Source of the DNA: Anadara kagoshimensis | Lineage: Eukaryota; Mollusca; Bivalvia; Arcoida; Arcidae | Assembly: GCA_021292105.1 (NCBI GenBank) | Contig: CM037866.1 | Location: forward strand, 1,659,256-1,723,255 | DNA: 64,000 bases | Reading direction: 5' to 3' | In this document: positions 37,716 through 63,456 of the stretch, piece after piece | Numbering within the stretch: the stretch's first letter is position 1 | Layout: every line of letters starts with the position of its first letter | Program-made: the position numbers and the translations under genes | Notes under the pieces: generated by a model | Database searches by the model: none | What the model was told of the DNA's origin: nothing | The model's input: the letters and a program-made list of their open reading frames with translations, nothing else

Positions 37716-37718
<3 letters not shown>

Positions 37719-39883: not shown

Positions 39884-40222
39884 ATGCTTAAGAAAGAAAG
39901 GTTACATTTGAAACTCTATGACAAACGTGATGACTTCGATTTTTCTATTGTCAATTTTCCTTTTCTGTGCAGTAATATACCCGCTTCTCCTGCTTATGGC
40001 GTATTTGTTTCCCAATTAATACGCTATGGTAGAGCGTGTTCCCACTACGGGGACTTTATACATAGAATCAGGATGCTTTCTACTAAATTACTTACTCAAG
40101 GATATTGCAAACCTAGGCTTATTAAAGCCCTTAAAAAGTTTTACGGGCGTCATCACAGTATTTTCGAAAAGTTTGATGTCTCTGTAACCAGGATTGTCCT
40201 GGATATATTTGACGTCTCATAG
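39884..40222 (+). pseudogene. Reverse-transcriptase-type C-terminal fragment (retroelement fossil)
   Basis: The 112-residue frame contains KLYDKRDDFDFSIVNFPF, then PASPAYGVFVSQLIRYGRAC and, near its end, KKFYGRHH. I recognise this as the C-terminal segment that follows the polymerase domain in a retroelement reverse-transcriptase family common in marine invertebrates. The upstream polymerase core is absent from the window, so this is a fragment. I cannot assign the clade with certainty. Confidence 0.6.
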
Positions 40223-40430
40223 TTCCATGTTCCTTTCACACAATTTTGATTGTTCACGTGACGGGTGTAGCTAGCTAAACAGGAGGTGCTTACCCTTTTG
40301 GAGCACCCGGCCTCACTTCCCTGGTGGAAGTTCACGTGACTTACCTGACTCGTCAGTTCCAAAGTTTTTACTTTGCTTTTGGATTCTGTTTTGGACATGG
40401 ATAAGTATGTTTTTTTATGATGATGATTAT
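40223..40430 (+). mobile_element. 3' tail of the same retroelement fragment
   Basis: It includes GGAGGTGCTTACCCTTTTGG and GAGCACCCGGCCTCACTTCC, a tail sequence typical of this retroelement family, and fades out near 40420. Confidence 0.5.
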
Positions 40431-41268
40431 ATATTATTGCTTATTAATACTTTAATGTCAAGACCAAAACCTTGATAACAATAACCTGTTAAATTAAGTT
40501 ACTACTAATATTCGGTCAATATTTCCCCCATGTCATTCAAAACGAATTTATTTACATAATTCATAATTATTTATTAAAAATTGTCAAGTTTATTAAAATG
40601 AAATATATTTGTAATTTTCACAAATATATTCTTCCTAGATTTAACATGATTACAATTAGTCAAAAAGAATTTCATTTCCAATACCCCGAGAAAAACATTT
40701 TAAAGAACATAAGTTAATCACGTAGAATAGGTTTAATATCTCTAGCCTACTATATCTAAGTAACTTTCATAATGAAATGAACTATAAAAAATGAATTTTA
40801 GTTCCAACACATGTGAATATTTCTATTAATATTCCATATAAGGGCCGATCACAGATAAACCATGAATATCGTGTTCTAGCACAACCATGCACCATGCTAC
40901 ATAAACAGTTTATGAACTAGAGGACTCGCAAACTAAAAAATCAAACGATATATTAAACTCATAATGTCACTTTGCTCTTAAGATGTCTTGTATTTCATTT
41001 TCATTGATATATACGTAGAAGGGATTAATAAGATTACGATGCATTTAATAGTCATTTTTACATGAAGACTTGTAAAAACCAATTAACCAAATATACTCAT
41101 AGTACAAGACAATTTCTGTTCCATTGAAATTTGCTCATCAAACTCGGGAAGAAAGATACTCTATATACCGGTACCAGATACCTGGTACATATGTTTTGAG
41201 TAATTTAATAGTCCGTAATTGCAGGTTTCTGAAATAAAAACATTCTTGATCACTTTGTTCATTTACGT
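40431..41268. other. Intergenic, nothing recognised
   Basis: AT-rich DNA without element ends, coding signal or RNA genes that I could support. Confidence 0.5.
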
Positions 41269-41628
41269 TTACTGTTTATCAAGGTATTCTTTCTTTCTGC
41301 ATCTTCTTTCTTCAGTTAAAGCGACCTTTCTGCTTGATTGTACAATTCTCCTTTTTTTTATCCCTTCTATCTTATGGATTCTAGATAGATGCGTAGGCAA
41401 TTGTTTGAAAAATCCGTGACACATCGGACAGGATAACACGCGTTTTGTTTGCGACTTTACTTTTTTCTTTTTCAGCAGATTTCCCGAAGCCACAGCTTTT
41501 CTGCCTTTTGTAATCATGTCAAGCCTTTTATCAACAGAACGGATCTTATGATACTGTATTAAATGATTTGAAAGTTTTGATTTATAGTCATAGCATATCA
41601 TACATAATCCGCTTCTATCCGAGATCAT
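41269..41628 (-). CDS. Two-C2H2 zinc-finger frame downstream of a SET domain
   Basis: The 119-residue frame has two similar fingers: CMICYDYKSKLSNHLIQYH (residues 9-27; Cys-x2-Cys-x9-His-x4-His) and CPMCHGFFKQLPTHLSRIH in its second half. Both are followed by KI, then basic tails rich in Lys/Arg. The short inter-Cys/His loop and the HL...H pattern differ from classical TFIIIA fingers and resemble fingers seen in some transposon-associated proteins. Its start lies 10 bases below the stop of the SET frame, same strand, in a different frame, and it stays open upstream of the ATG. The two may be one gene whose frames are offset by a G-run slip at about 41649-41653, or two exons. DNA or chromatin binding is inferred. 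Confidence 0.55.
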   Translation of the reverse strand: MISDRSGLCMICYDYKSKLSNHLIQYHKIRSVDKRLDMITKGRKAVASGNLLKKKKVKSQTKRVLSCPMCHGFFKQLPTHLSRIHKIEGIKKRRIVQSSRKVALTEERRCRKKEYLDKQ

Positions 41629-41638
41629 TTTCCTAGGA

Positions 41639-42208
41639 TTACAGTATGTTACCCCCTATTTTCTTCCTTCTACAAAATATCCATTGCATCTCCTTTGGCA
41701 CTTCCCTACCTGGTTGACCAATTAAGCATTTAACCGGGTTAAGAGAATCAAAGTAGTTCCAAAAGAGTTCTTCTCCCTGAGATATGTCACAGGCTGCAAA
41801 CATAGCAATTCTTGGTGTCTGTCTATCGTGTACTTGTAGCGGTTTGAACAATTTTAAGTTGGGGTTTCTTGCGTGGTTAATCAGTCGTGCGAATCCATAT
41901 TCAAATTCTCTTGTGGCGTCAATATAATATTTCACATCATTAAAATAAAATTCAAGGCAATAAGACAATTCTTCGTTCGTCTCGTATACTTTTTGTGTGT
42001 TAAGAAACTTATTTACAGAATACTTGACACAGCTACCCTTGTATTCCATTACATAATCGCCTTTTTTAAATGTTCTTTTTGTGAACACTGACCTTCCTCT
42101 TTTATTAATATTCTTGACTACAAAATTTTTGTTGAGATATTCTTTATCTTCTGTTAGCAAACCTTTGAGCATGATTTCTGTTGCTGTCAGATACTGAGAC
42201 ATTTCCAA
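41639..42208 (-). CDS. SET-domain protein, KMT5A-like lysine methyltransferase
   Basis: The 189-residue frame is almost entirely a SET domain. It has RGRSVF (37-42, cofactor-binding turn), FKKGDYVMEYKG (47-58), YYIDATRE (94-101), RLINHARNPN (108-117, the Arg-x-x-Asn-His motif) and GEELFWNYF (145-153, with Tyr152 at the catalytic tyrosine position). The DATRE and INH blocks and compact size match KMT5A/Set8, which monomethylates H4K20. A Trp replaces the usual Leu/Tyr before NYF, and the C-flank is Cys-containing (residues 160 and 179). KMT5A proteins are usually longer N-terminally; I see no upstream exon. The start MEMS is 589 bases from the divergent F-box gene. Substrate is unknown; intactness depends on whether it normally continues into the zinc-finger frame. 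Confidence 0.7.
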   Translation of the reverse strand: MEMSQYLTATEIMLKGLLTEDKEYLNKNFVVKNINKRGRSVFTKRTFKKGDYVMEYKGSCVKYSVNKFLNTQKVYETNEELSYCLEFYFNDVKYYIDATREFEYGFARLINHARNPNLKLFKPLQVHDRQTPRIAMFAACDISQGEELFWNYFDSLNPVKCLIGQPGREVPKEMQWIFCRRKKIGGNIL

Positions 42209-42797
42209 CCACAGAGACAGTCAATCACACATTTAAATATCGCAGATGTATATAAAAGATCTTGGCAAATTAAGATATAGTCTATTAGAATTTAAAACAA
42301 CGTATTTCACTGTAGCACCACTTGAACTCTCCTGTAAGGCTTTGGCATTAGATAACTTACGATTTCAGTTTATGTTACTACTTAATTTTGCTATGCCATT
42401 GGATACACTCTTTGCTTGCTACATTGTTTGAAACACAACAGTATTGCCATCAACAAGTTTAGATTAGAAAATTATTTCTGTGTGTACTTTATATAATTTC
42501 CAATTTTGTCACATACCGGTATATTGTTTGTTGCATAATATACATCCGAAATGTAGCCAGTAATAGCTAAACACGTCGTCACTTGAGAATTAGACTGTTA
42601 CAAGTCCACTTATTAAGTAAGATATTGACCTATTGTATATCGTTGGATTCATCTCATTCTCATATATATATATTGTTTGTGCAGTAACGGATAAACCTCA
42701 GTGCAATCCAAAGCATATCATAAAATGTGTGCAATACTTTCCATGTCCATAGTCAATTAGGTTCCGATATTTCTATAACATGGTGTTTGTATCGTAA
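42209..42797. promoter_or_regulatory. Possible shared upstream region between divergent genes
   Basis: The first ATGs of the SET frame (minus) and the F-box gene (plus) face away from each other across 589 bases. A bidirectional promoter is inference from layout; I found no convincing TATA box, only AT-rich runs such as the (TA)n near 42660. Confidence 0.25.
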
Positions 42798-42826
42798 ATG
42801 GACATGGAGAACTGCATTGGCAGTGG
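42798..42826 (+). CDS. First coding exon of an F-box/LRR gene
   Basis: ATGGACATGGAGAACTGC begins a 29-base coding stretch (MDMENCIGSG) ending GG|GTAAGT at phase 2. It joins exactly to the acceptor TTGATTTCAG|A at 44371, restoring a Gly codon and leading into RKEDQSS and the F-box. A short first exon is typical for such genes. Support is the phase match and the strong donor. Confidence 0.5.
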
Positions 42827-44370
42827 GTAAGTAACATTTTTTGTTTATTCAAAAAAATTTCTATTGAAATACATTGCTCCAATCTGCATAATAAGTTTTC
42901 TGAATCATGAATTTTGTTTCATAACTAAACTGCTGACATTTTTTCACCTGTAAATGGAGATGTCACATTCTTGCACTGAACATAAATTCAGCATGTGGTG
43001 CTGAGTTGAATAACATCTTATGATATAACTGTTGCTACTACTGGTTAAACAGAGGATCACCACTTGGACACTAAGTTAAAAACCTGTAGAGACTTTTTTC
43101 AAAAAAGGAAATATAATAAACTGTTATATAGAAAATAAAATTTATTTTTTTTAATTATCTCACTAAAGGCATTCCTCTTAGTTTAGTACATATAAATAAA
43201 ATTAATTGTAAAGTTAAATTTTCCTCTCCGTGTCCTCTAGGTTATTAAAATATTTAGAAGATGCTAAATTTCCCCGCCAAAGTATTATGTTACCACAGAA
43301 GAGATTTTATTATTTCAGTGAGAGGAAAGAAAGAAGATAGTGTGTTAAATTCTGTTAAAACCCTGATTTTATTATGTTTTCACATGACAAGACAATTACG
43401 TTTTGCTTATAATTATGAATCGTCATGTTACTAGTAATTTTGTAATTTGAAACATTCTTGAGTTATAAATTGGAGGAAATTGTTTTGTAGATTCCATCAC
43501 GCTCCTAGTAATTAATAAATTATTCCAACCTTGAGAATTGATGACTATGAATTGTTTTTAATGCACTAAATTTTAAGGCAGGTCAGCAGTATGTAATTTA
43601 TCAGTAATGCTAACACGTGGTTTATTATAAATTCCGCAACATTTGTGATCCAATTTATAAATAAGTCCCTCCCTTGCAGCTTTTGTAAAAACGAAGGTCA
43701 TTCCTCGACCTTTAATTTAACACATGAGTATAAATTGTGCAGTTATTAGTCCGAATAAAAAATTGTGCCTTAACATAGTTGTATCTGGGCATACAAACTT
43801 GAGAGAAAGAGCTAGGTTTCCACACATTGAAAACTATTAGTTGCCCAATTGCCACAAATTGTGAAAGAATAGTGCTTATTGAAGTATTTTTCCATAAAAT
43901 TGCTAAAAAGGGATATTTTTTAAATTAAATTCTCTGAAAGTAATAGCCAATGGCTATTTTTACAACCAAGATTGGAAACATAGAAATACAAATATACCAC
44001 TCCCAGATCAATATCATACTCGAAAAACGCAAAGCAAAACTTCGCGATAAACATGTGAACTTCCAAATGGTAACAACGACTAATATAAAAGTGAAGATAA
44101 AATGTACGGATAGATCAGGGACATAATTTTGGTCTCCAAAATACTGAGTATAGCCGTAATTTATCTTCTACAATCTTGGAAGACATTCAGTAAAATTTTG
44201 CAAACGGTGTAATAATAACATCTCAGTATTCATAATATAAGCTATAGATTTAAAGATTAGTATGGTAGGTAAATTATCAGATCTTTTCATTTCTTTTCAT
44301 CAAGATAGTTTAAAACTGAACTAATGTAAAATGTCAAAATACTAAACTGTTATGTTTATTTTGATTTCAG
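42827..44370 (+). other. Intron of the F-box/LRR gene
   Basis: The 1.5-kb intron is AT-rich, bounded by GTAAGT and TTTCAG, with no recognised element inside. Confidence 0.45.
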
Positions 44371-45907
44371 ACGCAAGGAAGATCAATCTAGTTTCAGTTT
44401 GATTAATTTACCAGACCAAATATTACTGGAAATTTTAAAATATTTCACTTTATTTGATTTGGTGCAAGTAATAAACAGAACATGTACAAAACTGAATATT
44501 TTGATTAAGAATAATACAATCCTATGGAGGCAATTTCAATTTGATTTTCCAATAACTATTAATGAAGATTCGTTGAAATACATAACAGCCCATTCAAGAC
44601 AATTTACAAACTTGGAAATAGGAAGTTCAGATTTTCAGTGTTCTGCTACTTTGTTTGACTACTATTTCAGCAATATTTATTATCAGGTAAACATCTTGTT
44701 TGGCTTAATTTGAGTAAAGCACCTCTGTCAACTCTATGTTTTCTGAAAGACCTCCCAAACTTAGAAGTATTAGATGTATCATATTGTAAAAACCTCCAGG
44801 ACTGTGATGTTTGTGTAATAAAACATTGCAAGAAAATAGAACAACTATATATATCATATTTGGACATTCAACCAGTTTCTCTTCTGGATATTATTCATTT
44901 CCTACCACACATATTTACTATTGATGCGTCTGGCATTAAATTCAACATTGTACAGATCGAGGAGCTATTATCAGTGTGTTATGATACCCTTTATTTTTTC
45001 GATTTCTCGCTACAAACGTCAGTATTACAAGAACAATTCACACATTTAATTCAGGATGTTTATATTGACTGTATGTTCAAAATTCATCCTGAGTGACCAG
45101 GATATTGACATGCTTTTGTTGTGACACTGACAAAGAAACGGTAAACGAACCTTTCTCATTTGAACCAGAAATAAATTTGAATTATGAACCTTCATTGGAA
45201 TCAGTATCTGTTAATATAGATGAACTTCCATCAACATCTATCCGGTTCAACTTCGATGATTTATTTAGTGATGTAAAAGGCTAATTCTGATGAAAATAAC
45301 AATAAAGTTAATGGCGATAGTAGTGAAACAGAAACAATGTCTGAGGGTGATTGATTGATTGAATAATTGAGTGTAACGTCCCAGTCAAGAATATTTCACT
45401 TATATAGAAAAGTCACCAGCTATTGGTGAAGGTGCAGAACTTTGCGCTTATGGCATTTTGCAGTGAGGGTTCTTTATTGTGGCACGCCTACCGTGACACT
45501 GGGCCTCGGTTTTTGAGGTGTCGTCCGAAAGACCCGTGACTTTCTTAATGTCGAGTGCTTTGCGAAAGAACAGTTACTACCCATTTTCAAGTCTTAGGTC
45601 AGACCGAGGATCGAACCTGAGACCTCCCACTTATGGAGCGAGCATTCTACCAATTGAGCTACCGAAGTGATGTCTCTGAGGTTGAGATAGATTATCTACT
45701 AAAGAAAAACATTGGTACGATGGAAGGTTATGTCGACGGCGAAGAAATCAAGGATAGAAAATCAAGAAAGAGTGTCATAAACAAGGAAAAGAAGCCAGAA
45801 TCTGATAGGTTGTACTTCGAAAATATTATTTTACATTGTGAGAAGAGTAGTAAGAAAACAGAAAAGAGAAATCAGTTTGAACCTCAAAAGCGAGGAGTTC
45901 AATTCAC
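44371..45907 (+). pseudogene. F-box/leucine-rich-repeat gene body, frame-disrupted
   Basis: An F-box opens the exon (INLPDQILLEILKYFTLFDL, then CTKLN and LWRQF), the motif that binds Skp1 in SCF ubiquitin ligases. Leucine-rich repeats follow (HLVWLNLSKAPL, LPNLEVLDVSYCKNL, KIEQLYISYL). The F-box frame passes to the LRR frame near 44670-44690, the LRR frame ends at TGA 45094-45096 while an overlapping frame (45093-45284) continues sensible acidic text, and another offset follows near 45280. A SINE then splits the coding text between SETETMSEGD and DVSEVEIDYLL; the tail is Lys/Glu-rich and ends at 45920 or a CACAG|GTAAAA donor at 45907. The simplest reading is a decayed host gene. Sequencing errors could explain some offsets, but not the SINE. 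Confidence 0.6.
45351..45669 (-). mobile_element. tRNA-derived SINE inserted in the F-box gene tail
   Basis: On the minus strand the head reads GGTAGCTCAATTGGTAGAAT (A-box) with B-box GGTTCGATCC. The body contains the 'aagtgaaatattcttgactg' segment and the tail is (CAAT)n at 45351-45362. The flanks ATGTCTGAGGGTGA (45337-45350) and ATGTCTCTGAGGTTGA (45670-45685) look like a diverged target duplication. Confidence 0.8.
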
Positions 45908-45920
45908 AGGTAAAAAGTAA

Positions 45921-47258
45921 AACGGTTAGGTCTAACTGTCAGAAATGTAGACTCTCATCAGTATTTTTATTGTGTTCAAGGTCTTTTATAGTTATAACTG
46001 TTTTCATAAAGAAACATCAGTTTTATAAAGCTAGAATGTTGGTCTTCAGAACAATTCATTTCCTGTTTATTATTTTTAAATATTCCTAGGATTAGATAAA
46101 TCCTTTTAGTATTAATGTTAATGGTTAAACTAGTTTACTACGACATATTGTTTTGTTTAGTATTCTTTGGATTAGAGGAATCCTGCAAATACATTCATGC
46201 AGGTAATTAGAAGATATTAATGTTCGCATTTTTTGCGTTCGTTACTGCAAAAAATATACAAAGTATCGTGAAATTGATCACATGCTTACAGAAGCTATTG
46301 GAAGTAACTTGAATAAGTCATTGAATTAATACATTATTTAGATTTTAAAAATTTTACCATTGCAATTAAGTTTTTTAATTAAATTGGTTTTGATGCTATT
46401 TTTTATTGAATTTGAATAATTACAAATTAGTACTTTTTTATTGTTCTCCCTGTAACGCTTTAATTCTAGTTATATTTTATGATGCAAGAATGTTGTAAAA
46501 CTCCATATTACCGAAATCTGAAAGTATTTCACACAAAAATGTTTAGTTTGCAAAAACTTCATAAAGATTAATTTTATGACAAAAGACTTTCATTTAAATT
46601 AATTTTAAAACATGCAAACTTTGACCCCCTTTTTAAAGTGACTTGTAACATTTTTATTCTCAGGCGATGATGTGTCGTAATTAATTTATTGCTCTGTTGA
46701 AATGTTGATGATATACTAGTTTAAATAATAAAAGAAAGAATACGGTTTAAATTTCAGATTGAATTCTAATTCGTTTTTGAACTCCATAAAATATCATTAC
46801 AGTATGTACGTGTCAACGCGTGTTAAATCCAGAGAAGAAAACAATATGCAGCACTTATCATTCTTAAAGGCGCCTCATTAATCGTTCCTTTCACAACGCA
46901 ATCGCCTTTATGTTACTTTTTAATATAATTGATACAATCAGAAAAAAAAATTGATCAATAATCTAAGGTAACATGTTTTGAGTACAAAGCACCGTCATAT
47001 AAACGCAGTGTTATGTCTTCAACCCCATCTGTAGTTAAAAACTATTTTAGCAAAGAACACTAATCAACATTAATTTGATCATGGTGGCCCAGATTTTAGT
47101 TTCATCACAAGTGCGGGAAAACCGAATGCATCGGCATTTAATCATAACTGGTTTTTTATTTAATGAAATATTCAAAGATTACATCGGATTTATCAATTTA
47201 CGAAGTGTAACAAAAGTTTGGTAAATTTTCTATCATTGACAGCTGTAGTCTTGTAGAT
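45921..47258. other. Intergenic, nothing recognised
   Basis: AT-rich sequence. I looked for Tc1-type inverted termini upstream of the transposase start and did not find a convincing pair. Confidence 0.5.
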
Positions 47259-48087
47259 ATGCCGCCTATTGGTCCTTTGGTTGGAACAGCAGCTCTTAAG
47301 CAAAGAATAGTTTCATGTTACAATGACATCATCAAGGAAAGGGGTTTTTTCTATGGAATATATTCGCAAATTCAGCGTGAATTACTTCGACAAAATATAT
47401 TATGTTATCGTTCTTTTATATGGAGAACTGTTCAAACGTTTAACTCATGTGGCAACATATTTCGAGAGCGAAGGGGAAGACAAAGTCAAATTTCATGCAA
47501 TGAAAATATTCTCGAAATTATAGAAAACTGTATGCAACAAAATGATGAGGCAACTGCAAAGTCAATCAAATCGCGTTTAAGAAGAAGAGGGTATAACGTA
47601 AGCGTGGCTACAATAAATAGAATGCGAACAAAGCTAGGATGGACTTTAAAAACTACACAATACTGCCAAATGATAAGACATGGAAATAAGCCCAAACGTC
47701 TTCAGTGGGCAACAGATAACCTTAACGACTCTTTTGAGAACGTAATTTGGTCAGACGAAACATCTGTCTGGTTAGAGAAACATTTAAAAAGATCATACAG
47801 AAAAAAAGGCAGTAATATTCATAGAAAGCCAAGACCAAAACATCCCCTTAAAGTCCATGTTTGGGCTGGCATAAGCAAAAGGGGTAAAACACAAGTATGT
47901 ATATTTAAAGGAACAATGGACGCAAACCTGTACATTGATATTCTAAGAAAAACATTATTGCCATTTATTAGTGAAAAGTTCCAAAATGGGCACAGATTTA
48001 TGCAGGACAATGACCCCAAGCACACCTCTAGAGTTGCTAAGTCTTTTTACGAAGCTAACAACATTAATTGGTGGAAAACACCTGCAG
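47259..48087 (+). CDS. Tc1/mariner-type transposase, exon 1 (residues 1-276)
   Basis: The first exon begins at ATG 47259 (MPPIGPLVGT) and ends CTGCAG|GTAAGT at phase 1. It holds a Tc1-type N-terminal DNA-binding region: a GRQSQIS hinge (about 73-79), the second helix-turn-helix with TAKSIKSRLRRRGYNVS (99-115) and RMRTKLGW (121-128). The DDE core follows with VIWSDETSV (Asp166) and FMQDNDPKH (Asp250). The third catalytic residue is in exon 2. Together the exons give 347 residues, the usual Tc1 transposase length, with no stop or frame break. The enzyme would cut and paste TA-flanked elements, but no inverted termini were found around the gene, so it may be a relic in mid-decay, an intron-bearing family member, or a host-retained gene. 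Confidence 0.75.
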
Positions 48088-48984
48088 GTAAGTTGGAAAT
48101 CTAATGTGTATTAATAGAATATTTGCATTTAGTTGAAGTTTCACTTGAACATGAAATTTTAACTTTTGTATTGCTTGAAAAAGCCATGGCTTGTCAAAAT
48201 TTTATGGGGTAGACTATGCTATGCTTGGCTTATCACGCCAAGGAAATGTCAATCAGGCATTTGGTGATTAGTGAGTGATTACATGCTGTCATGTGTCTGA
48301 TTTTGAAAGTGTTATAATCGTGCTTTATGTACATCTGTTCTGTCATAACCTCATTCTATACCTCGGGTCATGCATTTACCCATCCCCCCAATTGGAAGCT
48401 TTTCTCTTGGTATGAATTTCATATCATCTATTGAATTTTAGATGACTAATTGGTTATTTTGCTTTGTTTTGAAAATACAGGGATATTAAATAAGCTAATT
48501 TGGTGTATTCTAGTAATTTTCCAAAAATAGTTTTTCCTTAATGAGCAAATTTAATGGATTTTTGATAATTTATTTCTTTTTTTAATATTTCTCAATTTGA
48601 AAAAAGTTACCTATTTGGAAGATTGTCTCCGATTAAAAAATAACTATCAAAAGAAGGAGGGAAGGGGGAAGTTGGTTTTCTCTGAAACCCGATAAATTGG
48701 TCACTTTAAGAAAACTGCAAATTGGAAAATTAGGTGTTGACACTTTAGAAAAATATCCAATGGAATTAATTTTTTCGACCATTTTCTATACAAATATGCT
48801 GTAATATGGAAAAAATTGTGATGTATCGAAACTGATCTTGGTTCAAAGGTCAAGGTCACTGTTACTTTATATACAATTTAGTTTCCACACTTTTCTTACG
48901 TTGCAACCAATGGATTTTGTTCACACTTCACGCAATGACAGTACTTGATGAAAGGTAGAACCCTCATGGTTTTAATAAACTTAA

Positions 48985-49517
48985 AGTGAAAGTTCGGGTT
49001 AATTTTTTTTTTTTTTTTGATATATCTTTTATTAACATCTAATAAACAAAATTCCAAATTTCGAAATTAAAAATTTCAATTTTTAAGAAAGTTATAGACG
49101 AAAAACTTTCGCTTATGGGCGCCGCCATTTTAACTGAAAACAGGTGCTACAAAACATGCCGGGTAAGGAATCGTGACGTCACATAAACACTTCAACGTTG
49201 TTGTGCTAAGTTACATATGCATTCTAGTGATGATTATCGATTACAATGAGTACCCGTGAGAGTTCATCGGATTCAGATACTGATAATTCCGTGTTAAATG
49301 GTGATAAGGGTTATTCGTTTGAACCAGAATATACGGTAGAAGAGTTAGTAGAGCAAGAAAATAATGAAATTGAAAAATTTGGCTATTTTTCGGTGTGAGA
49401 AACTAATAGCAAAAACGGGTTAAAATGTAGCTTCGGCAAGTGCTATGACTTCGGGATCTTTCTGTTAAATTTACGAGGAGTGTAATAAAATGATAAAAGA
49501 CTTACATAATAATAATA

Positions 49518-49558
<41 letters not shown>

Positions 49559-49655
49559 TCTAGAAAAATAAAAAAAAAATTAAATTAAGAAACAAAATGA
49601 TGACACCTCGGTTTATACTTTGTCACTGAATGAGGAAACGTTCTTAAAATGTGTA

Positions 49656-49714
<59 letters not shown>

Positions 49715-50385
49715 TGATGATGATGACGGTGATGCGAAAGAAAAACTTTTTTCGGCTTTCATACATGAAAGAATTCAGTATACATGTTTCTTTTTTTGAT
49801 TAAACAAAATTACTCATATGGATGAAATCACCGTGTGGTTTATGTAACTCATCAAAACTTAATGTAAAGTCATTTTATTTTTGTTGATAAATTATTATTA
49901 ATATAATTTTTTTCTAATTCTTGAATTTGCATCCGATTCTCGCCTACCACTAATTAAGAGATTATCAATAATCTACCCGGAAACATCCTGTTTATTGGAC
50001 ACATTCCATTACCTGTGATCAACACGATTTCACATAACAATTTACAAACTTGATTGACAGGTGTGTATATAGTAAATAAAGTCTTTATGACACCGGAAAT
50101 GTTATTTGTCGTTACTTTGGGACATCAGAAAAATGTGAAGTGTAGAAAAAATGGAATTAAAAGTTACACAATTGACATGAGTGACTTGATCTTTCTTATT
50201 TCATTTTATTTTTTATTTTTCGATTTCCTACTTCACTTGAACAATTTTTAATCATTTACGTTTCCCTAAATCATTATTTAACCTTCATTTTTTTTCATGT
50301 TTTTTTTTTTGAATTTATACGAAAAAAGTAAAAATAGATAGTTTAACGCAAGCAGATATACTTTTCTGTTTGAAAAGAGTATAAA

Positions 50386-50440
<55 letters not shown>

Positions 50441-50772
50441 TATAACTATCATTCCATCAACATAAAAAAAAATTTCAGTTATAATAAACAACAAGTTTAT
50501 TAACATCATTAAATGACTAACAAATAATATAATATCGTTATTTGTTCGAATTGTTAAAGAAACAACGTGCATTTCATTCGGAGATATAAACCGAAGGTGT
50601 ATACTACGTCCTACTTCCGGCATTTCCTATTTCCGGTACGTGAGTCTCCATGAACGTGAAAATTCCAACTTCAAAAGTTCATATCTTTTAAAATATAGGG
50701 CATATAAAGCTCAAACCCGGCAAACGTAGTTATTTCGATTAAAAAAAGTTGTTCTCAACCCGAACTGTCACT
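48985..50772. mobile_element. TTAA-flanked DNA transposon (Kolobok- or piggyBac-like duplication)
   Basis: Termini AGTGAAAGTTCGGGTT and the complement AACCCGAACTGTCACT are inverted with one mismatch and lie between TTAA (48981-48984) and TTAA (50773-50776). A 50-codon frame at 49246-49398 (MSTRESSSDSD ... YSFEPEYTVEELVE) looks like the N-terminus of a longer element protein; the rest is missing, so the copy is internally deleted. It also contains AAT/ATT microsatellites. TTAA duplication suggests Kolobok or piggyBac; the terminus does not begin CCC as piggyBac often does, favouring Kolobok. Confidence 0.75.
49506..49726. repeat. (AAT)n/(ATG)n microsatellites
   Basis: (AAT)n at 49506-49558 and 49656-49711, the second passing into (ATG)n; a matching (ATT)n lies at 50386-50438 within the same transposon. 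Confidence 0.9.
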
Positions 50773-51354
50773 TTAAGGTCACCGGTACTCAAAGCATAAT
50801 TTTGGTTTCCACACTAACGTTAGTTTTATTAAAAGGGTTTTTTTTGTTGAAACTTTGCTCAGTAATTGTGTGATGTTGCGGGTAGCACTTGGCAGTTGGC
50901 CTGTTCCTCTGTCTTTGTGCCCATCAGTCTCCTTCGTTTCCATGCTCGAGCCTAAATTTTATTTTGAACCGATTTTCTTCAAAATCCACAAATTTACAGA
51001 ACTTGATGCAAATGAGAATCCTATTGATTTTAGAGATCTTGGACAAGGTCACTTTAGGATCTGGACGTTAGCTAGTAACTCGTGCGCTCAAGCTAGTAAC
51101 TCATGCGCACCGGTTATAATTTAATTTTTTCGTGGCCCGTCTTGTCTTCCGTATAAAATGATGAAATAAAGCTTATTTGAGCATTTCTATAAATAATAAT
51201 TGTTCAAAAATTTAACATAGAATTTTATGCGTGGATGTACAAAATAAGTCTTACTGATATTTTAACCTCGCAGACAAATATTTTTAACATTTATTATCAA
51301 TAATAACGACATAATAAAACTTTTCAAATAGGAGCACACAGGCAGAAACTGTAG

Positions 51355-51357
<3 letters not shown>

Positions 51358-51416
<59 letters not shown>
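51358..51416. repeat. (CA)n microsatellite
   Basis: A pure AC run within the transposase intron. Confidence 0.95.
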
Positions 51417-51417
<1 letters not shown>

Positions 51418-52492
51418 ATATCGTTCTTTTCAAGACGACGACCAGCATGTTGTAAACTTTCAACAGTTCATGTTGTAAGAAATGGTTCTGAGATTTTACG
51501 TTTTGATCTTTGGGAAAAAAACATTTTTCTTAATTTACGATTATGATGATATCTTTTTTAATAAGTAATTATTCTAATCTTTTATTTATTGTAAGTACTC
51601 CACGTCAAGAAACTAAGTTTTTTTTTTACTAAGACTCACAAACTTAACATAGTAATTGCACCAATTAGGTTTAACGCTCAGTAAATTGAACTTTTTTGAA
51701 ACTAAATGTTTTAAACTGTAACTGAACGTATAAGTTATTCTATGGTGAATAATATTACAATATTGGTATCCTTCCTCAGATTTTTTTTTTTTTAAGATCA
51801 TTTTCAACTTGAATGAAATTCATTTTCAAGTAACTATTAGTCGCGCACGTCGGGGAACATTCACTTTGTAAGTAAACACTGTAACTCGGACTCTTGGGGC
51901 ATCTTGGCAATTTTATGTTGTAGGTTAATTGAAATACATATCATTACTCAAAGAAACGTGTGCCGAACAATTCAGATGTGAATTTGTTCTGGTATCTTAT
52001 GAAAGAAATTATAAGTTACATGTACAATATATATTTTATGTTCCACGGGCAATGGAACAATTTGCCAGCATTTATGTGTCCACTACCTGAAGACGTTTCA
52101 TGAACACATATTAATTAGGTTAAACAGGTAACAGTCAGTGATATGTCAGTTAGTCTATTACCGTCTATGAACATGTAGAAATGTAGAAATTAGGATACAA
52201 TTGGTTAATTTCAATGTCGTAAGTTGGTCATTGTAAAATGTTTCGTCTTTTGACAATTCTTCTTGTTCTTCCCTTTTATTTGACATTTGAGGATAAAATA
52301 TATTTTCTATAAAATGCAAGTCTACTAAATCAAAATACTAGAACCAAACAAATTTAAAAAAAAATAAAAATAAAATAATAAAACAAGGAAACTTTTTATT
52401 TTTCTCTTTATGAAGATGATTCGAGCTTTAAGACTTCCCTTTCCTAAAAGGAAGTTTTTATTTTTAATTTTGTCACAAGTATGGTAAGATGA

Positions 52493-52532
<40 letters not shown>

Positions 52533-52564
52533 AAGTTTTATTTCATTGAACGTACTATTTGTAG

Positions 52565-52779
52565 AATCACCTGATTTAAATCCCATCGAAAACTTGTGGC
52601 ATGAAATGAAGGATTTTCTTAGAAGGACCATAAAACCATCCTGCGAAGAAGAACTTGTTCGGGGTATCCTGCAATTTTGGGACAATTTAACAACGGAAAA
52701 ATGCATTACATACATAGACCATTTAAAAAAAGTAATGCCTAAAGTCATATCTGTAAACGGAGAGGCTACTGGTTATTAG
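52565..52779 (+). CDS. Tc1/mariner-type transposase, exon 2 (residues 277-347)
   Basis: After the acceptor TTTGTAG the exon restores a Glu codon and continues ESPDLNPIENLWHEMKDFLR, the canonical C-terminal block of Tc1 transposases, with the catalytic Glu285 in PIEN. Asp250 and Glu285 are separated by 34 residues, the DD34E spacing of the Tc1 family, which is reached only when the intron is removed. The frame ends at TAG 52777-52779. That the conserved block resumes at an AG acceptor in the right phase 4.5 kb away is the strongest evidence for splicing. Confidence 0.75.
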
Positions 52780-53280
52780 TGACCTCTTGGCACCACCAAA
52801 GGCTGAATTCTTGCTTTTGAGAGATCAAGTACAGTTTTCCATCCAAGCTCAAGTACATACAAAAGGTGAACACAATAGTTACTAAGCGTCTGATTGCATG
52901 TTGAAAAAGACTAAAAATTTGACTCAATTTTTTCGATTCATTAACAAAATTACATGACTGTTATGTATAAGAAACTAGTTTTATTATGAAATAGACTATG
53001 GTGAAATATGGAATGACAATGTTAAATTAAGGTGAATCATGTTTGATTTCTGAATTGATGTTATGTTTTAAGCGTTAATATTTTTGACATCAGTCATGAT
53101 TATACCCATGCTTTTCGTAAAAGTATCTGAAAAAATATAAAAGTCATAGGAATCATAAGTTTTTGTTTCCAAGGAAATTAATTAAATTTTCTGATCAAAG
53201 AATTTATTGAAAACTTTAAAATAAAGGTAATAAATCAAAAAGGTGTAATGTTAATATTGAAGAAATTTAATTTGAAAATA

Positions 53281-53940
53281 TGAATAGTGGTGATATTGAT
53301 AATAATGTTGATAATAATATGTTTATGCACGGTAATGATGAAATACTGAATAGTGCTATTAAAAATGAAGAAGTACTAACATGTGTAAAGCAATTTAAAG
53401 AACAAGTTCGTAGACAATGTTCTAAATGAGTATTTTGTATCTATAATCCTCATTATGTTTCCAATTTATTGTAAATTATTTAACTTAATTTTTGATACAG
53501 GTATTGTACCTGAGTCATGGTTTCTTGGGATATTATTCCTATTTATAAAAACAAAGGTAGTAAGAATGATGTTTACTATAGACCAATAACTTTGCAAAGA
53601 TGTTTAAAAAAATTTTTTTACTTCAATTTTATGGGTCAGATTCAATAAATATGTTGAGGAATATGCAATTTTAAGCAAGAATCAGTTTGGTTTTAGAAAT
53701 AAATATTCATAACGGATAATATTTTTGTATTATTTAATTTAATTTAATTGAAATCCTATTTTCAAAGGGTAAGAATCTTTTATGTACTTTTATTAACTTT
53801 AAATCAGAATTTGATAAAGTTTTGAGAGGTGGTTTATGGCAAAAGCTTAATATGATATTAATGGTAAATGATTGAAATATATATTGAATACGTATAGCAA
53901 TACTAAATTAAGAGTTGATTATATTATAGTTATTAGTTAT
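53281..53940 (+). mobile_element. LINE reverse-transcriptase fragment, N-terminal part
   Basis: Broken frames carry ILNSAIKNEEVLTCVKQFK, a VPESW word, PIYKNKGSKNDVYYRPIT and INFKSEFDKV, the succession of blocks that opens the polymerase domain of non-LTR retrotransposons. Multiple frame changes and stops show an old copy. The catalytic A/DD block lies in the second fragment at 55320. Confidence 0.65.
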
Positions 53941-53942
53941 TT

Positions 53943-55075
53943 TTCTAAGTTCTAAGTTCTTTATTCACTCATTAACCACCGGAGGTGGTACACGAGGTAC
54001 AATCATCATATTTACATTATATACATGCATGTCAAGTTAAACAATACAAAATATACAGTATGCAGTTATATACAAACATTTTGTGGTTAATGTACATAAT
54101 ATTTATTCTTACTTTCGAATTAAGGCTTAAATTACTTTATTAGCAAAGTAAAATAAAAATAATGATGCATATTTGGATAATAAGCAGAGCAGTGTAGCAA
54201 GTGATTGGGTAAGGCCCCTACCTACAAGCCCAAATCTACAATGCTTATTATCCAAACCAAGCAAAGTATGATATGCGAACCAGTGTAAATATTGTAAGTA
54301 ATCCAATTGTAATTCAAGCAAGTAACCAATATAATAATAATAATAATAATAATAGCACCAAGAGTAATAACAAATTAAAATATTAGATAATATGACAATG
54401 TTTTATAATTTTTACTTTTGGACTAAGGCTTAAATTACTTTATTAGCAAAGCAAAATAATGATACTTATTTAGATAATAAGCAGAGCAGTGTAGCAAGTG
54501 ATTGGGTAAGGCCCCTACCTACAAGCCAAGATCTACAATGCTTATTATACAAACTTAGCTAAACGTACTAGTGTAAATATTGTAGGTAATCGAATTGTAA
54601 TTCAAGCAGTTACCATAATAGATTAATAATAATAATAATAGCACTGGAAATAATAACAAATTAAAATATTTGATAATAGCTAATATGCCTTCAGACCTTC
54701 CCTTATAAATTTGCATAAGTTAGATAAAGTTTCATATTTTTTACTTTTGAACAGATATTGCATTTTTATAACATTTGGGTTTATATGAAATTTTTGTGGG
54801 ATGTACATGCTTCTTATTATATCAAAATTTCTACATTCAAATAAAAAGTGAAATTCGTCTCCAATGTTGTTATGACAGAATTTACATTTTCGTTCACTCC
54901 TTTCCATCTCATACCATCTCCCTTTCTCAATAGGTAACCTATGATTACAAGTTCTGAATTTAGCCATGATAATTCTAAAATATTCTGGTAACAAGCTTAA
55001 ATAATCTTCAAAACCAAATTCTGTTTTAATCATTCTGTATGTAATAGCTTTACTTGACACTTCTATTTGAGATTA
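53943..55075 (-). mobile_element. LINE 3' end in minus orientation with C-terminal frame
   Basis: A 126-residue frame (54680-55060) contains FRTCNHRLPIEKGRWYE, then CKFCHNNIGDEFHFLFEC, the Cys/His motif at the C-terminus of several LINE ORF2 proteins. About 730 bases of 3' untranslated sequence follow, including a ~300-bp tandem duplication (about 54105-54400 and 54410-54680), then AATAAAG and an (AACTTAG)n tail at 53943. It is inserted into the plus-strand LINE. Confidence 0.65.
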
Positions 55076-55265
55076 CCATTGCTGTATATACTAATCTTTT
55101 AATTTTTCAGATTATTTTATATTAATAATGGCGTTAGAACACCTATCCCCCTTTTTATTTGCTAATGTTGCTGTTATTATTCTTTGTATTGTCATTTACT
55201 ATTTGATGTTATGATCTTTTAACCATGTCATAGGAGGAAATAAAGCAATGAATGAATGAATGAAC
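55076..55265 (+). mobile_element. Short plus-strand LINE-type 3' end
   Basis: T-rich sequence ends GGAAATAAAGCAATGAATGA, that is a polyadenylation-like AATAAA followed by an (AATG)n tail (55246-55264), as at many LINE 3' ends. Confidence 0.5.
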
Positions 55266-55319
55266 CATATCTAATGAACTATAACATGAGTGTGATATCT
55301 TTTTAAAACTGTTTTATTA

Positions 55320-55830
55320 CTTAATGCTGGTGATACTGCACTTAAGAAGATTTACAGCAGCAGCTAGATTGTTTCTCTTTGTATAGCCAACAATGGAAGC
55401 TAAATAGAAATTGTTCTAAAACAAAGGTAGATATTTTTACCAAAGGCACACTTCTTCAAAACTTAAATTTTTCATTAAATAAAGAGATTGTGAAATATTT
55501 TAAATAACTTATATATTATATTTCAGTACATATGGTTCATTTGTAACTACTAAGACATATTTATCTGATAGAGCTAATCAAGCTATGTTCTCTGTTATTA
55601 AAAAAGCACGATTGTATAATTTATCTGTAGATTGTCAACTTGATCTTTTTTGATAAAATGTCATGCCTATTTTATTGTATGGCTGGAAAGTATGGGGCTT
55701 TGACAAAGTAGACATGTTAGAAAACGAACACCTTAAATTCTGTAAATTTTTTTTACATGCAAAAAAAATCTACAACAAATATTATAGTATATGGTGAAAT
55801 GGGTAGATTTCTATGACTATCCGTTTTGCT
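55320..55830 (+). mobile_element. LINE reverse-transcriptase fragment, C-terminal part
   Basis: Broken frames contain a decayed DDTAL-like block (GDTALKK), QQWKLNRNCSKTKVDIFT, then CQLDLF and LFYCMAGKYG and VYGEMGRF, in the order seen after the catalytic Asp pair of LINE polymerases. It continues the element at 53281, from which it is separated by the two inserted LINE ends. Confidence 0.65.
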
Positions 55831-55845
55831 AGTTGGAATTTATGA

Positions 55846-56225
55846 TATAATAAAATTGAATTTGTGATATCATTAATTCGAATTTGTGATATCATTAATT
55901 AAGGTAAATTTATGATATCAATAAATCGATTTTATGATATCAAATAATCGAATATGTGATATCACTAAATGAATTTATGATATCATCAATTCGAATTTGT
56001 GATATCATAAACTCGTTTGATTTTGTGAAATCATAAAATCGAATTCGTGATATCATCAAATCATTCCCGATCGAATAGAAATATGGATTGTAGCACGTGT
56101 TTCATATTATGAAATCGACTCAGTGATATCACAAAATACGATGATTTTATGATATCACTTATTCGATTTAGTGATATCATCAATTCATTTTATGATAGCA
56201 TGAATTTGAATTCGTGATATTACAT
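55846..56225. repeat. Degenerate GATATCAT word repeat
   Basis: About fifteen copies of TGATATCA, most within AATTCGAATTTGTGATATCA, spaced 25-33 bases. Each word is palindromic. Similar in style to, but not the same consensus as, the cluster at 1-830. Confidence 0.85.
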
Positions 56226-57263
56226 TTATACACTTCTCAGAAGAAACCTATGAAGCTTTAACTTGCAGGGAGTGACTAAACTTTTTTTGTAATTTATGCA
56301 TTCAGAAATTAAAAAGTTATGTTACTGACAGATATCATGTCAAGTTATATAACACCTCTGTCTCTTTTCCAAAAGAAAAGCAAAAAAGCATTTTTTGATC
56401 GAAATGAAATCTTAAGACAATGCTGTCATGGAGTAAATTTGTTTCGCGGGCACATGTATTGATATTCAATCACCGACTCTAGTTTTGTTTATATATTATC
56501 ATAGCTATTATCTTAACTATACTGAGGCTAAAATTAACTTAGCACAATCTGCACTACTAAGGGATTGTCGTTAACATTGGTGATACGTTGGAAACAGAGA
56601 TTTGAGATGCTGTTACAATAAGCTAAGAATATTCACCGCCTAAAAATGGTAATGAATACTGTAGTTTGTAAGAGACAACAAAAAGAAGAAATGTATGTGC
56701 GAATGAATACACTATTTCAGACGGCGCACATTGTTGAGCGGAAATTGAGATGTTACCATTGTCCTAACAATAGGATGGGGAATTCAACAAATGAAATCAC
56801 CGCCACGATAGGTGATTTCAAGAATTGAATTCAACGCCTAACTAGAATTGCAGAGTATACAACTAATAATCTTCATTCTAAGTGTCACTATGACCCTTGG
56901 TCACTACTCGGGAGAAACAATTTATGAGATGTATGTTTATAAACAGATATCTTGTAACACATTGTTATATCTCTACGTTGAGTAATACTAATTTAAAAAT
57001 AATTAATTACACGTAAAAACCTATCCTTTTGGTCGTAAGAACATCCGTTTGTAGTTCTATGACACGTATCCATTTAATTTGCTGTCTGATCCAATTAAGA
57101 TTTCCTCTATTTACGACCCCTCTAGCCCAAAGGCCTAAATAAAAAAATCTAGAGTATCGATTCAAATATTACTGAAAAATAAACTTTGAGCAAAACTCAA
57201 AACTTGACTAATGAACACTATCGTATGATTTGATAAAAAATATGTCGAAACTTGATACCATGA
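56226..57263. other. Intergenic, nothing firm recognised
   Basis: A 60-codon frame at 56646 has no splice signal or family. The first 200 bases may be further LINE tail, without clear motif. Confidence 0.45.
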
Positions 57264-57416
57264 TGGGTTGGTTGGTTGGTTGTAATGTTGTTTTACGTCG
57301 CATCAGCAATTTTGCAGTATCTCAAATTTTTAAGTCTTATGTATGACCCGGCAGGGGTTCGAACCAGCAACCTCCCGCTCTTGAGGCGGACGCTCTTCCA
57401 CTGAGCCACCGAGGCG
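57264..57416 (-). mobile_element. SINE copy with intact head, middle deleted
   Basis: On the minus strand CCGCCTCGGTGGCTCAGTGG is a full A-box head and GGTTCGAACCC the B-box. The sequence then jumps to the 'aaaattgctgatgcgacgta' tail segment and (CCAA)n. Compared with 7741-8121 about 230 bases of body are missing. Confidence 0.8.
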
Positions 57417-57597
57417 GTGATATAAGATGGGCGCCATGGCAACAACTTGGTACTAGATATAAATATCATGATTTTCTTATAATTCTTCTTATTTAATAAA
57501 ACTTAACAAGGATCAAACGTTCACCTGATAATGCTGAGTTCGAAACGACACGAGTTCAGGAATGTTCCTTACCAAGATAAGAAATTGCCAATTTTCG

Positions 57598-57797
57598 TTA
57601 CATCAACGGATAATATACAATTATGACCTTCATGAAAAGTAAATATCCAAAATTATCAAATCTCGAATGGGTAATTTCCCGAGGGCTAAAATTATCAAAT
57701 CGAGAATGGGATATCGAGATCGATAATTTTTATAATTTTGGATATTTACTTTTCATGAAGGACATAATTATATATTATCCATTGATCAACATATTTT
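57598..57797. repeat. ~58-bp-arm inverted repeat (foldback MITE)
   Basis: CTTCATGAAAAGTAAATATC at 57629 is matched by its complement at about 57740; the arms extend outward with few mismatches to GATAATAT/ATATTATC and GATCAAC/CATCAAC words. The spacer repeats ATTATCAAATC(T)CGAGAATGGG-like words. No transposase. Confidence 0.8.
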
Positions 57798-59120
57798 TGG
57801 GCATTTACTATTCTTGAATCATGAAGATCATATTATATTATAGTTATAATAACAGTATTTTCAAAAGTTAATTCAATTTATTGGCATAAAACCGTGATTA
57901 AGTTTAACAATTTCAACCATAAACATAAGTTATTACTCGTCCGCGCATAAGCGCGCCAAATTCAAAAGGTTATTTTTTACCTACGCGCAGTTTCCCGCGG
58001 GAAATTGGGGTTATTGAAGCTGATGTCAATAAAATGGAAAAAAAATATCTCTGTTATTTATTTCTCAGTTTCTATAGAGAAGAATAATGATACGTAGTTA
58101 TATACGCATTGAACATTTTCAAGAATGATTTTTTAATGCATTTATGCCATCATACCTGCCGCCAAAGTCGCCCAAAATGAAAATTTTGAAAAAATATCAC
58201 ACGTGCTCACCGTAAATTCTAGCCTCAAAACAGAGAGTATGCATCTGTTTATACAAATACTTCTGTCAGTATTCCGATGCGGGACGTGCATTTATAAACT
58301 TATCAACAAACCCTACAGGTTTCATTGTAAACAAAATAGCCATTATTTATTTTGTATTTGCCCGCGAAAAAAATGCCGGTGTACCGAAAATTGAAAATGT
58401 TGCTGAGCTAGGTGCACCGAACATTAATTAAAGATGATTAATTATGCAACCTCTCTCCACTCTTAACAGTTGTCCCGTTACAACAACTGCCGGTAAGTCA
58501 CATGGGTTCTTTGTTTCTTGGTTTAATGATACTATGAAACGAATCATAACTCATCAATTTTCATTCAAATGTTATTGGAAATCTTTAAGCCAAGTTACAA
58601 GTATCATTCTATGTTAATGTTTACCTTACATTAACGATAGTGGGCCTCTACCTATTTATCGTATGATGTACGCAATTTTCACACTCAAGACCTTGTAATG
58701 ACTGACTAGATCAATATCTCCAATAAAACCGGAGATGGGCAGGTTCGGTAATACATGTATTAAGTAATTTTTCGGCTAAATTAATGTTTTGATCACTTAA
58801 TCTATCGAGGCAAAATTCCGAATTCTGATATGAAGTATGTGGAAATAAGAGTCTAAACGAAATCATGGCCTGTGACCATTTAAACGGGGCTGTTGGATGG
58901 CTCAATGCTACTGTAATTTATTTAATCGATTTAACTATTTTAGGAAGATTTCAATTTTCATAGGTTTTTTTGTTTAGTTAACTATGACTGAAAAACTAAA
59001 TGTTGTTTATATTTTAACTACGGTAGCAAAGCATAATTTTGTCTTCAGAAGTCATCATATATCAATTTGTTTCATTGATCTGAACAGTGGGTTTTATTCT
59101 AAATCTAAAATCTGAAAACA
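57798..59120. other. Intergenic, nothing recognised
   Basis: AT-rich except a modest GC rise near 57940-58010 with 'cgcgcataagcgcgcc'. No gene support. Confidence 0.45.
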
Positions 59121-59139
59121 TTACATACAAGACAGTATT

Positions 59140-59250
59140 GTCATGTGGTACTTTTGAATTTTTATGAAATAATATAATTCAAAAGTACCACATGACATGT
59201 GGTACTTTTGAATTATATTATTTCATAAAAATTCAAAAGTACCACATGAC
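59140..59250. repeat. Perfect 111-bp palindrome (55-bp arms, 1-bp centre)
   Basis: By eye the left arm from GTCATGTGGTACTTTTGAAT to the centre at 59195 is repeated exactly as its reverse complement. Each arm is itself hairpin-like, so TGTGGTACTTTTGAATT occurs four times in alternating orientation. ACAGTAT at 59132-59138 and about 59249-59255 may be a short target duplication. Confidence 0.9.
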
Positions 59251-59482
59251 AGTATGGCTACAAATTCTATGGATTACAATGAGCAAGGAGTTTCTACCAC
59301 TCTGTATCAGTTGTATTATTACAAAAGTGAAAAGTGTGTATAATGATATATTCTAGGAATGAATGATCGTGTAAATGATCGAACAAGCAATCAGAAATTC
59401 TACCATTGCCAATTGAAGTTCCGTGTTGTTTTCCTATCATTTTTCTTTTAATAAATTACAATGACACCGCACATTTGGTTTA

Positions 59483-59588
59483 TCATGTGCGAATTTTTGA
59501 ATTTTTACAAAGAAAATATTTAAAAATTCTGCATAATTCAATTTTTGAATATTTTCCTTTGTAAATTTCAAAAACTCTGCACATGACA
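59483..59588. repeat. Imperfect inverted repeat (~48-bp arms)
   Basis: TCATGTGCGAATTTTTGAAT at the left pairs with the complement of the segment ending AAAAACTCTGCACATGA, and TACAAAG(A/G)AAATATT words pair internally. Terminal TCATGTG is shared with the palindrome at 59140, suggesting related foldback elements. Confidence 0.75.
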
Positions 59589-59599
59589 ATTCTGCCCTT

Positions 59600-60450
59600 A
59601 AAAATAAATGTATTTACGATTTTTATGTATTTCCTTCTTTTCAAAATGATAGTCAACTTAACATTTTTCTATCTTAATTACGATACATTTTGGCTTCTTG
59701 CCCGGTCAGATTATAATTTACGGGAGAAGAATGATTAAACCTTCTCAGAACAGTAATTGGCACAACACCTATTCCCAACACCAAAGATGTGAAAATTCCC
59801 CTCTCGTTTTTAAAACATTTTCACAATTTTAGTCAATTTCTAGACATTTGTCACTGATACGAAAGTTGTTATACAGTACAGACATTTTATATAAACGTAA
59901 TTTTGAAGTGTCAGATTTAATTTTGTTTATTTTATCTCAAGAAATTCCAGTGAAATACGCATTGATTTCTTGCTTTATTTTTTCAATATTTATAGGAATA
60001 GTAATGAGGTGTCTTCAAATAACCTTTTATGTTTAAGTCTACGAGATTTTTTTTCAATATACACAGATTTTTCATGCATACTTCACGTTAACCTATTGTA
60101 TTTGTATCTCTGCACAGTATAATGAGTGCATTATTTGATTTTTATTTAAGAGAATTCTTTCTTGAAGCTGATGTTACTTTCACAACATCTTGATAATACA
60201 ATTCGACGTCTATAATAGGCAACACTTAAATATCTTCCTAATCATTATTCAGTAGATTTCTTGATACTAGGGACATAAAATCCATGTAAAATAATTACTA
60301 TTAAACTTGCGAACACATCACTCACTTGGCAGACGTACGCCCGCTTTGTCATCAATCATATCAGTTTTTTACATGTAATTGACTTAGTTTACCGCCTACC
60401 GCAACAAAACAAATATAATGCAAGTCCGCGTAAATGGTGGCGCGCACTTT
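59600..60450. other. Intergenic, nothing recognised
   Basis: AT-rich sequence. A 62-codon frame at 59848 is hydrophobic but without promoter, splice or family support. Confidence 0.45.
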
Positions 60451-60468
60451 TTCAGTAAAGATGGAATG

Positions 60469-60732
60469 GTATTAGTTCGATGGCGAAATAACAACACAGA
60501 ATACGATGGAAAGGAGCATTACTGCCGTTGAAAAAACTTGTTCAAAGGATGCACAAGTTGGAGACAATGTTACAGTTAAATGGATAAGGAAGGTTTGGAA
60601 TGGGATACTTGTGTCCCGAGATAATTACAAAAAGGAAAAAAATTACAACAAAGCGTTTAAAACAGAAACCAAAGAAAGACACGAAAAAGATTTAAAGTAT
60701 GTAAAAAGAAAGAAGAAACAAAAAGTGGCAAA
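60469..60732 (+). CDS. Candidate first exon, small basic protein
   Basis: A frame from ATG 60510 (MERSITAVEKTC) contains VGDNVTVKWIRKVWNGILVS, which reads like a small beta-barrel (Tudor/chromo-like) segment, then a Lys-rich tail ending GCAAA|GTAAGA, a plausible donor at 60732. An overlapping frame from ATG 60469 (MVLVRWRNNNTEYDGKEHYC) looks like the natural N-terminus but is offset by one base, stopping shortly after. GC-richer sequence just upstream (60420-60460) could be a promoter. A real but frame-shifted or mis-sequenced exon is possible; no next exon was found in the window. Confidence 0.35.
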
Positions 60733-60789
60733 GTAAGATATTATTTGTATTTCAAACACTTTAAACTATTTAATGAATTAATCCCCCCA

Positions 60790-60795
<6 letters not shown>

Positions 60796-60826
<31 letters not shown>

Positions 60827-60841
60827 CTCTCTCTCTCTCTC

Positions 60842-60900
<59 letters not shown>
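60796..60900. repeat. (CT)n microsatellite
   Basis: A CT run with few interruptions, preceded by a C-rich stretch. Confidence 0.95.
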
Positions 60901-60903
<3 letters not shown>

Positions 60904-61159: not shown

Positions 61160-61206
<47 letters not shown>

Positions 61207-63440: not shown

Positions 63441-63456
63441 GATGCAGTTACAAATT

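Follow-up and report, generated by a model that had tools for sequence, protein, structure and literature searches.

Transposition of Tc1/mariner elements is thought to drop with length. These elements are described as usually 1-3 kb long with one intronless frame, and longer variants exist (PMC10379824). Tc1-like elements of molluscs that carry spliceosomal introns, termed TLEWI, are described with three to five of them (Puzakov et al. 2020, doi 10.1007/s00438-020-01645-1). Giant elements in the portion of the literature consulted include the piggyBac-herpesvirus, Starship, KDZ, EnSpm and Sola-1 types. Teratorn of medaka, for instance, at ~180 kb, is a piggyBac-type mover fused to a herpesvirus (PMC10175614). 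The giant KDZ, EnSpm and Sola-1 elements of Ectocarpus, with a maximum of 15-30 kb, contain nested insertions and extra genes and include transposase-less copies presumed to be moved in trans; the two Ectocarpus Tc1-Mariner elements given with sizes in the sections available measure 217 bp and 4.4 kb (PMC12477816). Here we analyze a 64,000-nucleotide stretch of the genome of the bivalve Anadara kagoshimensis (contig CM037866.1, C10 below, positions 1,659,256 to 1,723,255; hereafter the window), which contains a Tc1-type transposase gene split by an intron. The gene is probably carried by a giant Tc1/mariner-type element and would be the transposase of that element family. A literature search for a Tc1/mariner element this large found none, coverage of subscription papers being mostly lacking, and a word search of the available text of a review of giant transposons (PMC6431247) found neither 'mariner' nor 'Tc1'.

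Exon 1 of the gene (47259..48087, forward strand) encodes the N-terminal part of the transposase with catalytic residues D166 and D250, and exon 2 (52565..52779, forward strand) supplies E285 within SPDLNPIEN and runs to the stop. Joined, they specify a 347-amino acid protein in which 34 residues separate D250 from E285. The exon borders read CCTGCAG/GTAAGT at the donor and TTTGTAG/ at the acceptor (the slash marking the border), and 17 in-phase joins lacking a stop were tried, all within a few bases of this junction; the one at 48087/52565 alone has GT-AG. A DDE_3 domain (Pfam, E=1.4e-21) and DD34E spacing, features of the Tc1/mariner superfamily, are present in the joined protein. At a cut-off of E=0.1, the only structure matched in the PDB is that of Sleeping Beauty (5cr4, E=1.1e-23). 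HTH_Tnp_Tc3_2, which would represent the paired-type helix-turn-helix DNA-binding region of the N-terminal part, scores 24.2 bits, under the cut-off of 31.5. A single-sequence structure model of exon 1 was too poor for use (predicted local distance difference test, 34.6). Read from its sequence, the gene encodes a full-length transposase of the DD34E Tc1 type, and its mRNA would need removal of a 4.5-kb intron between D250 and E285. The original prediction of a Tc1 transposase completed by splicing is thus borne out by the single in-phase GT-AG join, the DDE_3 domain and splice sites kept in a paralog, and the DD34E spacing and 347-residue length that it gave are those of the joined translation. 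One intron was found in the gene, and additional 5' exons may exist. This putative spliceosomal intron (48088..52564, forward strand, 4,477 bp) had also been said to hold its own transposons; (TAA)n, (CA)n and (CT)n runs were seen inside it, and no DDE-type match fell in it among the matches listed.

A diverged paralog, designated paralog d, lies on contig C25 (exon 1 near 4512-5296, exon 2 at 9676-9899). As aligned by blastn, the exons are 70.6% identical to those of the window over 574 nt and 69.0% over 226 nt. The splice sites of paralog d, CCTGCTG/GTAAGTT and TTTGCAG/AATCACC, fall at the identical codon and phase, and blastn of the window locus against paralog d reported no alignment for the intron. 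Same splice sites around an intron that no longer aligns indicate that the intron is old. Across 328 aligned codons, the proportion of nonsynonymous differences (pN) is 0.22 and that of synonymous differences (pS) 0.78, which indicates that selection acted on the transposase protein as the loci diverged; saturation of the synonymous sites makes a strict ratio of substitution rates (dN/dS) impossible to compute for this pair. Exon 1 of paralog d contains frame breaks. A further copy, on C16, is 91% identical to paralog d over 1,822 aligned positions; it extends no further than the donor site and contains frame breaks as well as deletions. If the 4.5 kb were an insertion into a single copy, many copies with a contiguous core would be expected, and this was not what was found: all four close copies seen with both exons (C10, C1, C25 and paralog d) have the split at one common position, and, among the matches listed, the nearest relatives with a contiguous, intronless frame are 42-48% identical over the matched part. 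These contiguous relatives (L014, L015, L023 and L035, on C17 and C9) occupy at least four places and perhaps form an ordinary Tc1 family; 117-nt offsets seen when L014, L015 and L023 are compared point to a tandem unit upstream. Outside the genome, no transposase relatives were confirmed in viral contigs or in bacterial and archaeal genomes, and matches in plasmids (50 records) were all below 60% identity, with five listed at 21.0-23.5%, four of them annotated as IS630 family.

The ends of the element lie far from the gene. Searches were made of a genome assembly of 1.115 Gb in 36 contigs, and a left-end search, in which 40 of 507 candidates were scored, returned 116 matches, eight of which are ~100% identical and start within the same few bases: C10 (the window copy), C1, C25, C27, C15, C5 and two on C7. 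The remaining matches are partial, at ~70-88% identity. The next 4,401 bases are fully matched in the same eight copies, the best of 175 matches. In seven of the eight, TA is followed directly by CAGTTGAAATCTTTACATC, and the eighth (C5) shows an additional A inside the motif; all eight break at TA/CAG with the TA outside. The left flanks are otherwise different, except for one common to C5 and one of the C7 copies (C7b), which leaves seven distinct sites. For the window copy, the left end (C10:1654241, window position -5014) precedes the transposase ATG by 52.3 kb, and the whole window (1..64000, forward strand) is taken as lying inside the element, with the right end beyond it. No TA-flanked terminal repeats above shuffle level were found within 3 kb either side of the gene; the earlier remark that terminal repeats are not visible therefore holds at that distance, but ends exist tens of kilobases away.

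Copies with both ends were recognized by the 21-base end motif, which has exact matches at 10 places in the assembly, namely the seven left ends, C7 27267097 (reverse strand), C5 5720042 (forward) and C10 1139624 (forward). The C7 and C5 motifs are each inverted relative to the left end on the same contig and close sister copies of 98.8 kb and 45.5 kb, respectively, with TA outside both ends. A 42-base end, with up to three mismatches allowed, gave nine matches as against none for the reversed control, and the right ends on C7 and C5 carry an identical single difference from the 42-base left end. The TA outside the ends may be a duplicated target site. A right probe (window 62950-63450) gave five matches of ~100% identity, with all five candidates scored: the window itself, C1, C7 and two in reverse on C10. 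The distance from the probe to the end motif is 36,514 bases in C7 and 36,499 in the C10 copy at 1.14-1.18 Mb. If the window copy is like that on C7, its right end is predicted ~36.5 kb past window 63450, which would make a window-type copy ~105 kb long, and we presume that the window copy has or had such an end. A (TA)n run (approximate limits 63461..63526), where the C1 copy departs from the shared sequence, was tried as the right end at 63526 and rejected, as the shared sequence runs on beyond it in C7 and in two other C10 copies, just as in the window copy. Two of the right-probe copies, at C10:1722705 and C10:1802457, face each other 80 kb apart and could be an inverted pair or an assembly fold-back. 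A further C10 copy (C10:1181806-1203385, reverse strand) contains ~19 kb of additional sequence at the position that corresponds to window 57260.

The copies are nearly identical. Over eight stretches compared between the window and C1, two substitutions were found among 19,957 aligned positions. Both fall in a single stretch, next to a simple repeat, and the copies otherwise differ by insertions and deletions (indels). C10, C1 and C25 have a common left end and much shared sequence beyond the gene, with different left flanks. Exon 1 DNA is present at these three places in near-identical form and at three more with weaker similarity (all six candidates scored); the near-identical gene on C25 has one in-frame stop, caused by an indel. 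A long-query search scored 37 of 25,824 candidates, mostly dispersed repeats, and is uninformative on copy content. To judge from the near-identity, the element family has been copied very recently. The earlier view of a stationary, possibly domesticated copy, which implies immobility and no element ends around the gene, is not supported: at least eight near-identical left-end copies are present, and a sister copy on C7 and another on C5 are bounded by inverted ends flanked by TA. The other part of that view, that Tc1 elements normally lack introns, stands as a rule, and intron-bearing Tc1-like elements of molluscs (TLEWI) are in print. Neither this gene nor its element is of the short intronless kind, which is itself a rule and not an absolute.

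Adjoining the transposase, 5 kb upstream and in the opposite direction, is a SET-domain gene (41272..42220, reverse strand; Pfam SET, E=2e-17) with a cysteine/histidine-rich tail that looks zinc-finger-like by eye. Around 41652, a 2-nt difference separates the window from the copies on C1 and C25, and in C1 the frame stays open over 317 codons. SET family members are few, with 21 matches (79 of 79 candidates scored): C10, C1 and C25 have the same sequence, identity is 55-62% for pieces at the paralog d locus and on C16, two places on C13 hold decayed pieces, and the remaining matches are at 31-36%. The head-to-head order of SET gene and transposase is also found at the paralog d locus and in the C16 copy, and for both genes the comparison of the window with the diverged second locus gives a low pN against a saturated pS. 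Could the two instead be a host gene pair, SET plus a domesticated Tc1, caught in recent segmental duplications and serving the host? We hold this to be quite improbable. The low copy number, the intron, the low pN with saturated pS and the lack of terminal inverted repeats (TIRs) near the gene would suit a host function, but the same selection is expected for a transposase kept active, and eight copies with a common left end at seven sites, each with TA outside, and the inverted ends on C7 and C5 speak against a host pair.

The gene is assigned as the mover of the element because Tc1-type ends and the TA fit a Tc1 enzyme, because no other such gene is among the matches listed within the spans, and because Tc1 and SET stayed together under selection in two diverged loci. 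The element ends, starting CAGTTGAA, resemble, as we take it, those of Sleeping Beauty. The split transposase protein is most likely the mover. It would bind the inverted repeats starting with CAGTTGAAATCTTTACATC, excise the element and re-insert it at TA, and it would also mobilize in trans those sister copies that lack the gene, such as the ones on C7 and C5. The fuller proposition, which we put forward tentatively and with somewhat less than even confidence, is that of a ~100-kb autonomous Tc1/mariner family with an intron-split transposase, a SET gene as its long-term partner, and gene-less C7 and C5 copies moved in trans. The SET gene would then be more than a passenger.

Several observations weigh against this assignment. 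No right end was found on the gene-bearing copies (C10, C1 and C25): the C1 copy departs from the shared sequence at the (TA)n run, the C25 copy runs off its contig, and the exact 21-mer was not found near the expected place on C10. A comparison of the left end with the right side up to window 73000 revealed no TTCAACTGTA, the best match having six mismatches in 21; a gapped local alignment of the two scored 21, slightly above chance (30 shuffles, mean 15.9, maximum 20). The C10 1139624 end is absent from the nine 42-mer matches, and the 21-mer with up to two mismatches gave 16 matches, fewer than the control's 39, so that the exact matches and the 42-mer alone are telling. The distance from left end to right probe in C7 is only ~6.2 kb shorter than in the window, though SET to Tc1 spans 11.5 kb; the C7 copy is therefore not the window type minus one deletion, and some copies could have acquired SET and Tc1 as cargo. 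Genome searches for the transposase scored 117 of 822 and 150 of 1547 candidates, and one of them missed even the window's own gene among the matches listed, so another mover could have been missed. Lastly, where copies differ in little but indels, some of them could be duplicates introduced by the assembly.

The cargo possibility deserves to be taken seriously, although we consider it unlikely. It grants that the giant element is real and makes the SET-Tc1 region a passenger of one copy lineage, with some other enzyme, or none now, moving the element. The transposase and its adjoining SET gene are in three of the eight left-end copies (C10, C1 and C25), and exon 1 is without a match on C5, C7, C15 and C27 (six of six candidates scored), which bear the other five left ends. 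The two-ended elements on C7 and C5 contain neither Tc1 nor SET in the same exon 1 search or in that for SET, and the length difference of C7 from the window requires more than one deletion. Against a passenger role stand ends of Tc1 type (CAGTTG, TA), which suit a Tc1 transposase, and the head-to-head SET and Tc1 of the second locus, both at low pN. In addition, the matches listed include no other DDE_3 or Tc1-like one inside the C7 or C5 element or in the remainder of the C10 span.

An assembly artefact, in which a single locus was written several times and recent movement is illusory, is very improbable. The small-indel differences, the identical left flanks of two of the eight copies (C5 and C7b), the small size of contigs C25, C27 and C28, and the two C10 right-probe copies facing each other are what repeated writing of one locus might produce. 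Such an artefact would hardly, however, join seven different left flanks at the same base, each after TA, or give near-equal right-arm lengths in two places, and the copies vary in length and gene content.

Other features of the window fall on either side of the transposase. Between it and the SET gene are F-box/LRR-like reading frames (44330..45917, forward strand; F-box-like E=1.3e-7, LRR_4 E=1.7e-6), for which no match was reported at the corresponding place of paralog d. A third reading frame (60401..60733, forward strand), which shifts frame within the window, is collinear with a frame behind exon 2 of paralog d (C25 ~9980-10300; 68.5% over 162 nt, E=2.3e-7). Pfam searches of 18 window frames and one C25 frame besides the transposase, a sample of the element, revealed no viral domain. 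Frames at 54683-55072 and about -1960 to -1590, both on the reverse strand, look by eye like nested remnants of reverse transcriptases from long interspersed nuclear elements; the former has no Pfam match. The two arms of a 300-nt direct repeat (26082-26381 and 37699-37998), 11.6 kb apart, are 100% identical, with 91% identity over a further 1.1 kb, and between them are several repeated units, each with a similar frame of ~90-113 amino acids (28599, 30665, 31636, 33136 and 35443). A long minisatellite with a 32-nt unit occupies 23739-25091. Paralog d for its part sits in a block common to C25:8179-42760 and C28:595-35190, which may be another giant element of this family; in their main alignments, five of the nine probe pairs compared and a 389-nt stretch show no substitutions, and the four probes further on are without a match. 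The right end of this block at C28 ~35190 looked plain and permits no conclusion, as the different sequence of C25 there could be an insertion.

If the reading of the locus as a giant Tc1/mariner-type element is true, a recently copied family of 45-100 kb would suggest that Tc1 machinery can move DNA on the scale of a small gene cluster, intron and passengers included, in an animal genome. An intron together with the lack of TIRs near a gene does not, then, show domestication, and it may be worth searching for ends tens of kilobases away from other intron-bearing Tc1 genes so far taken for host genes. Like Tc1/mariner DD34E transposons, the present system has DDE_3, DD34E spacing and TA beside its ends; unlike the usual ones, it has sister copies of 45.5 and 98.8 kb, a transposase split by a 4.5-kb intron, and extra genes. 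TLEWI elements are reportedly DD36E, without TIRs and of low copy number. The likeness to them lies in a Tc1-like transposase with a spliceosomal intron and, as far as that account goes, in low copy number, and the difference in one intron found instead of three to five, DD34E in place of the reported DD36E, and family TIRs, though far from the gene. SETMAR is said to be a host gene in which SET and a mariner-type transposase are fused; here, too, a SET gene adjoins a mariner-type transposase, but as two separate head-to-head genes in a mobile-looking element. Teratorn shares with the present system the character of a giant animal element with short inverted ends and differs in that the element here is Tc1-type and has no viral Pfam domain in the scanned frames. 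The giant elements of Ectocarpus come close in their nested insertions, extra genes and transposase-less copies presumed moved in trans, although they belong to other superfamilies and reach a maximum of 15-30 kb.

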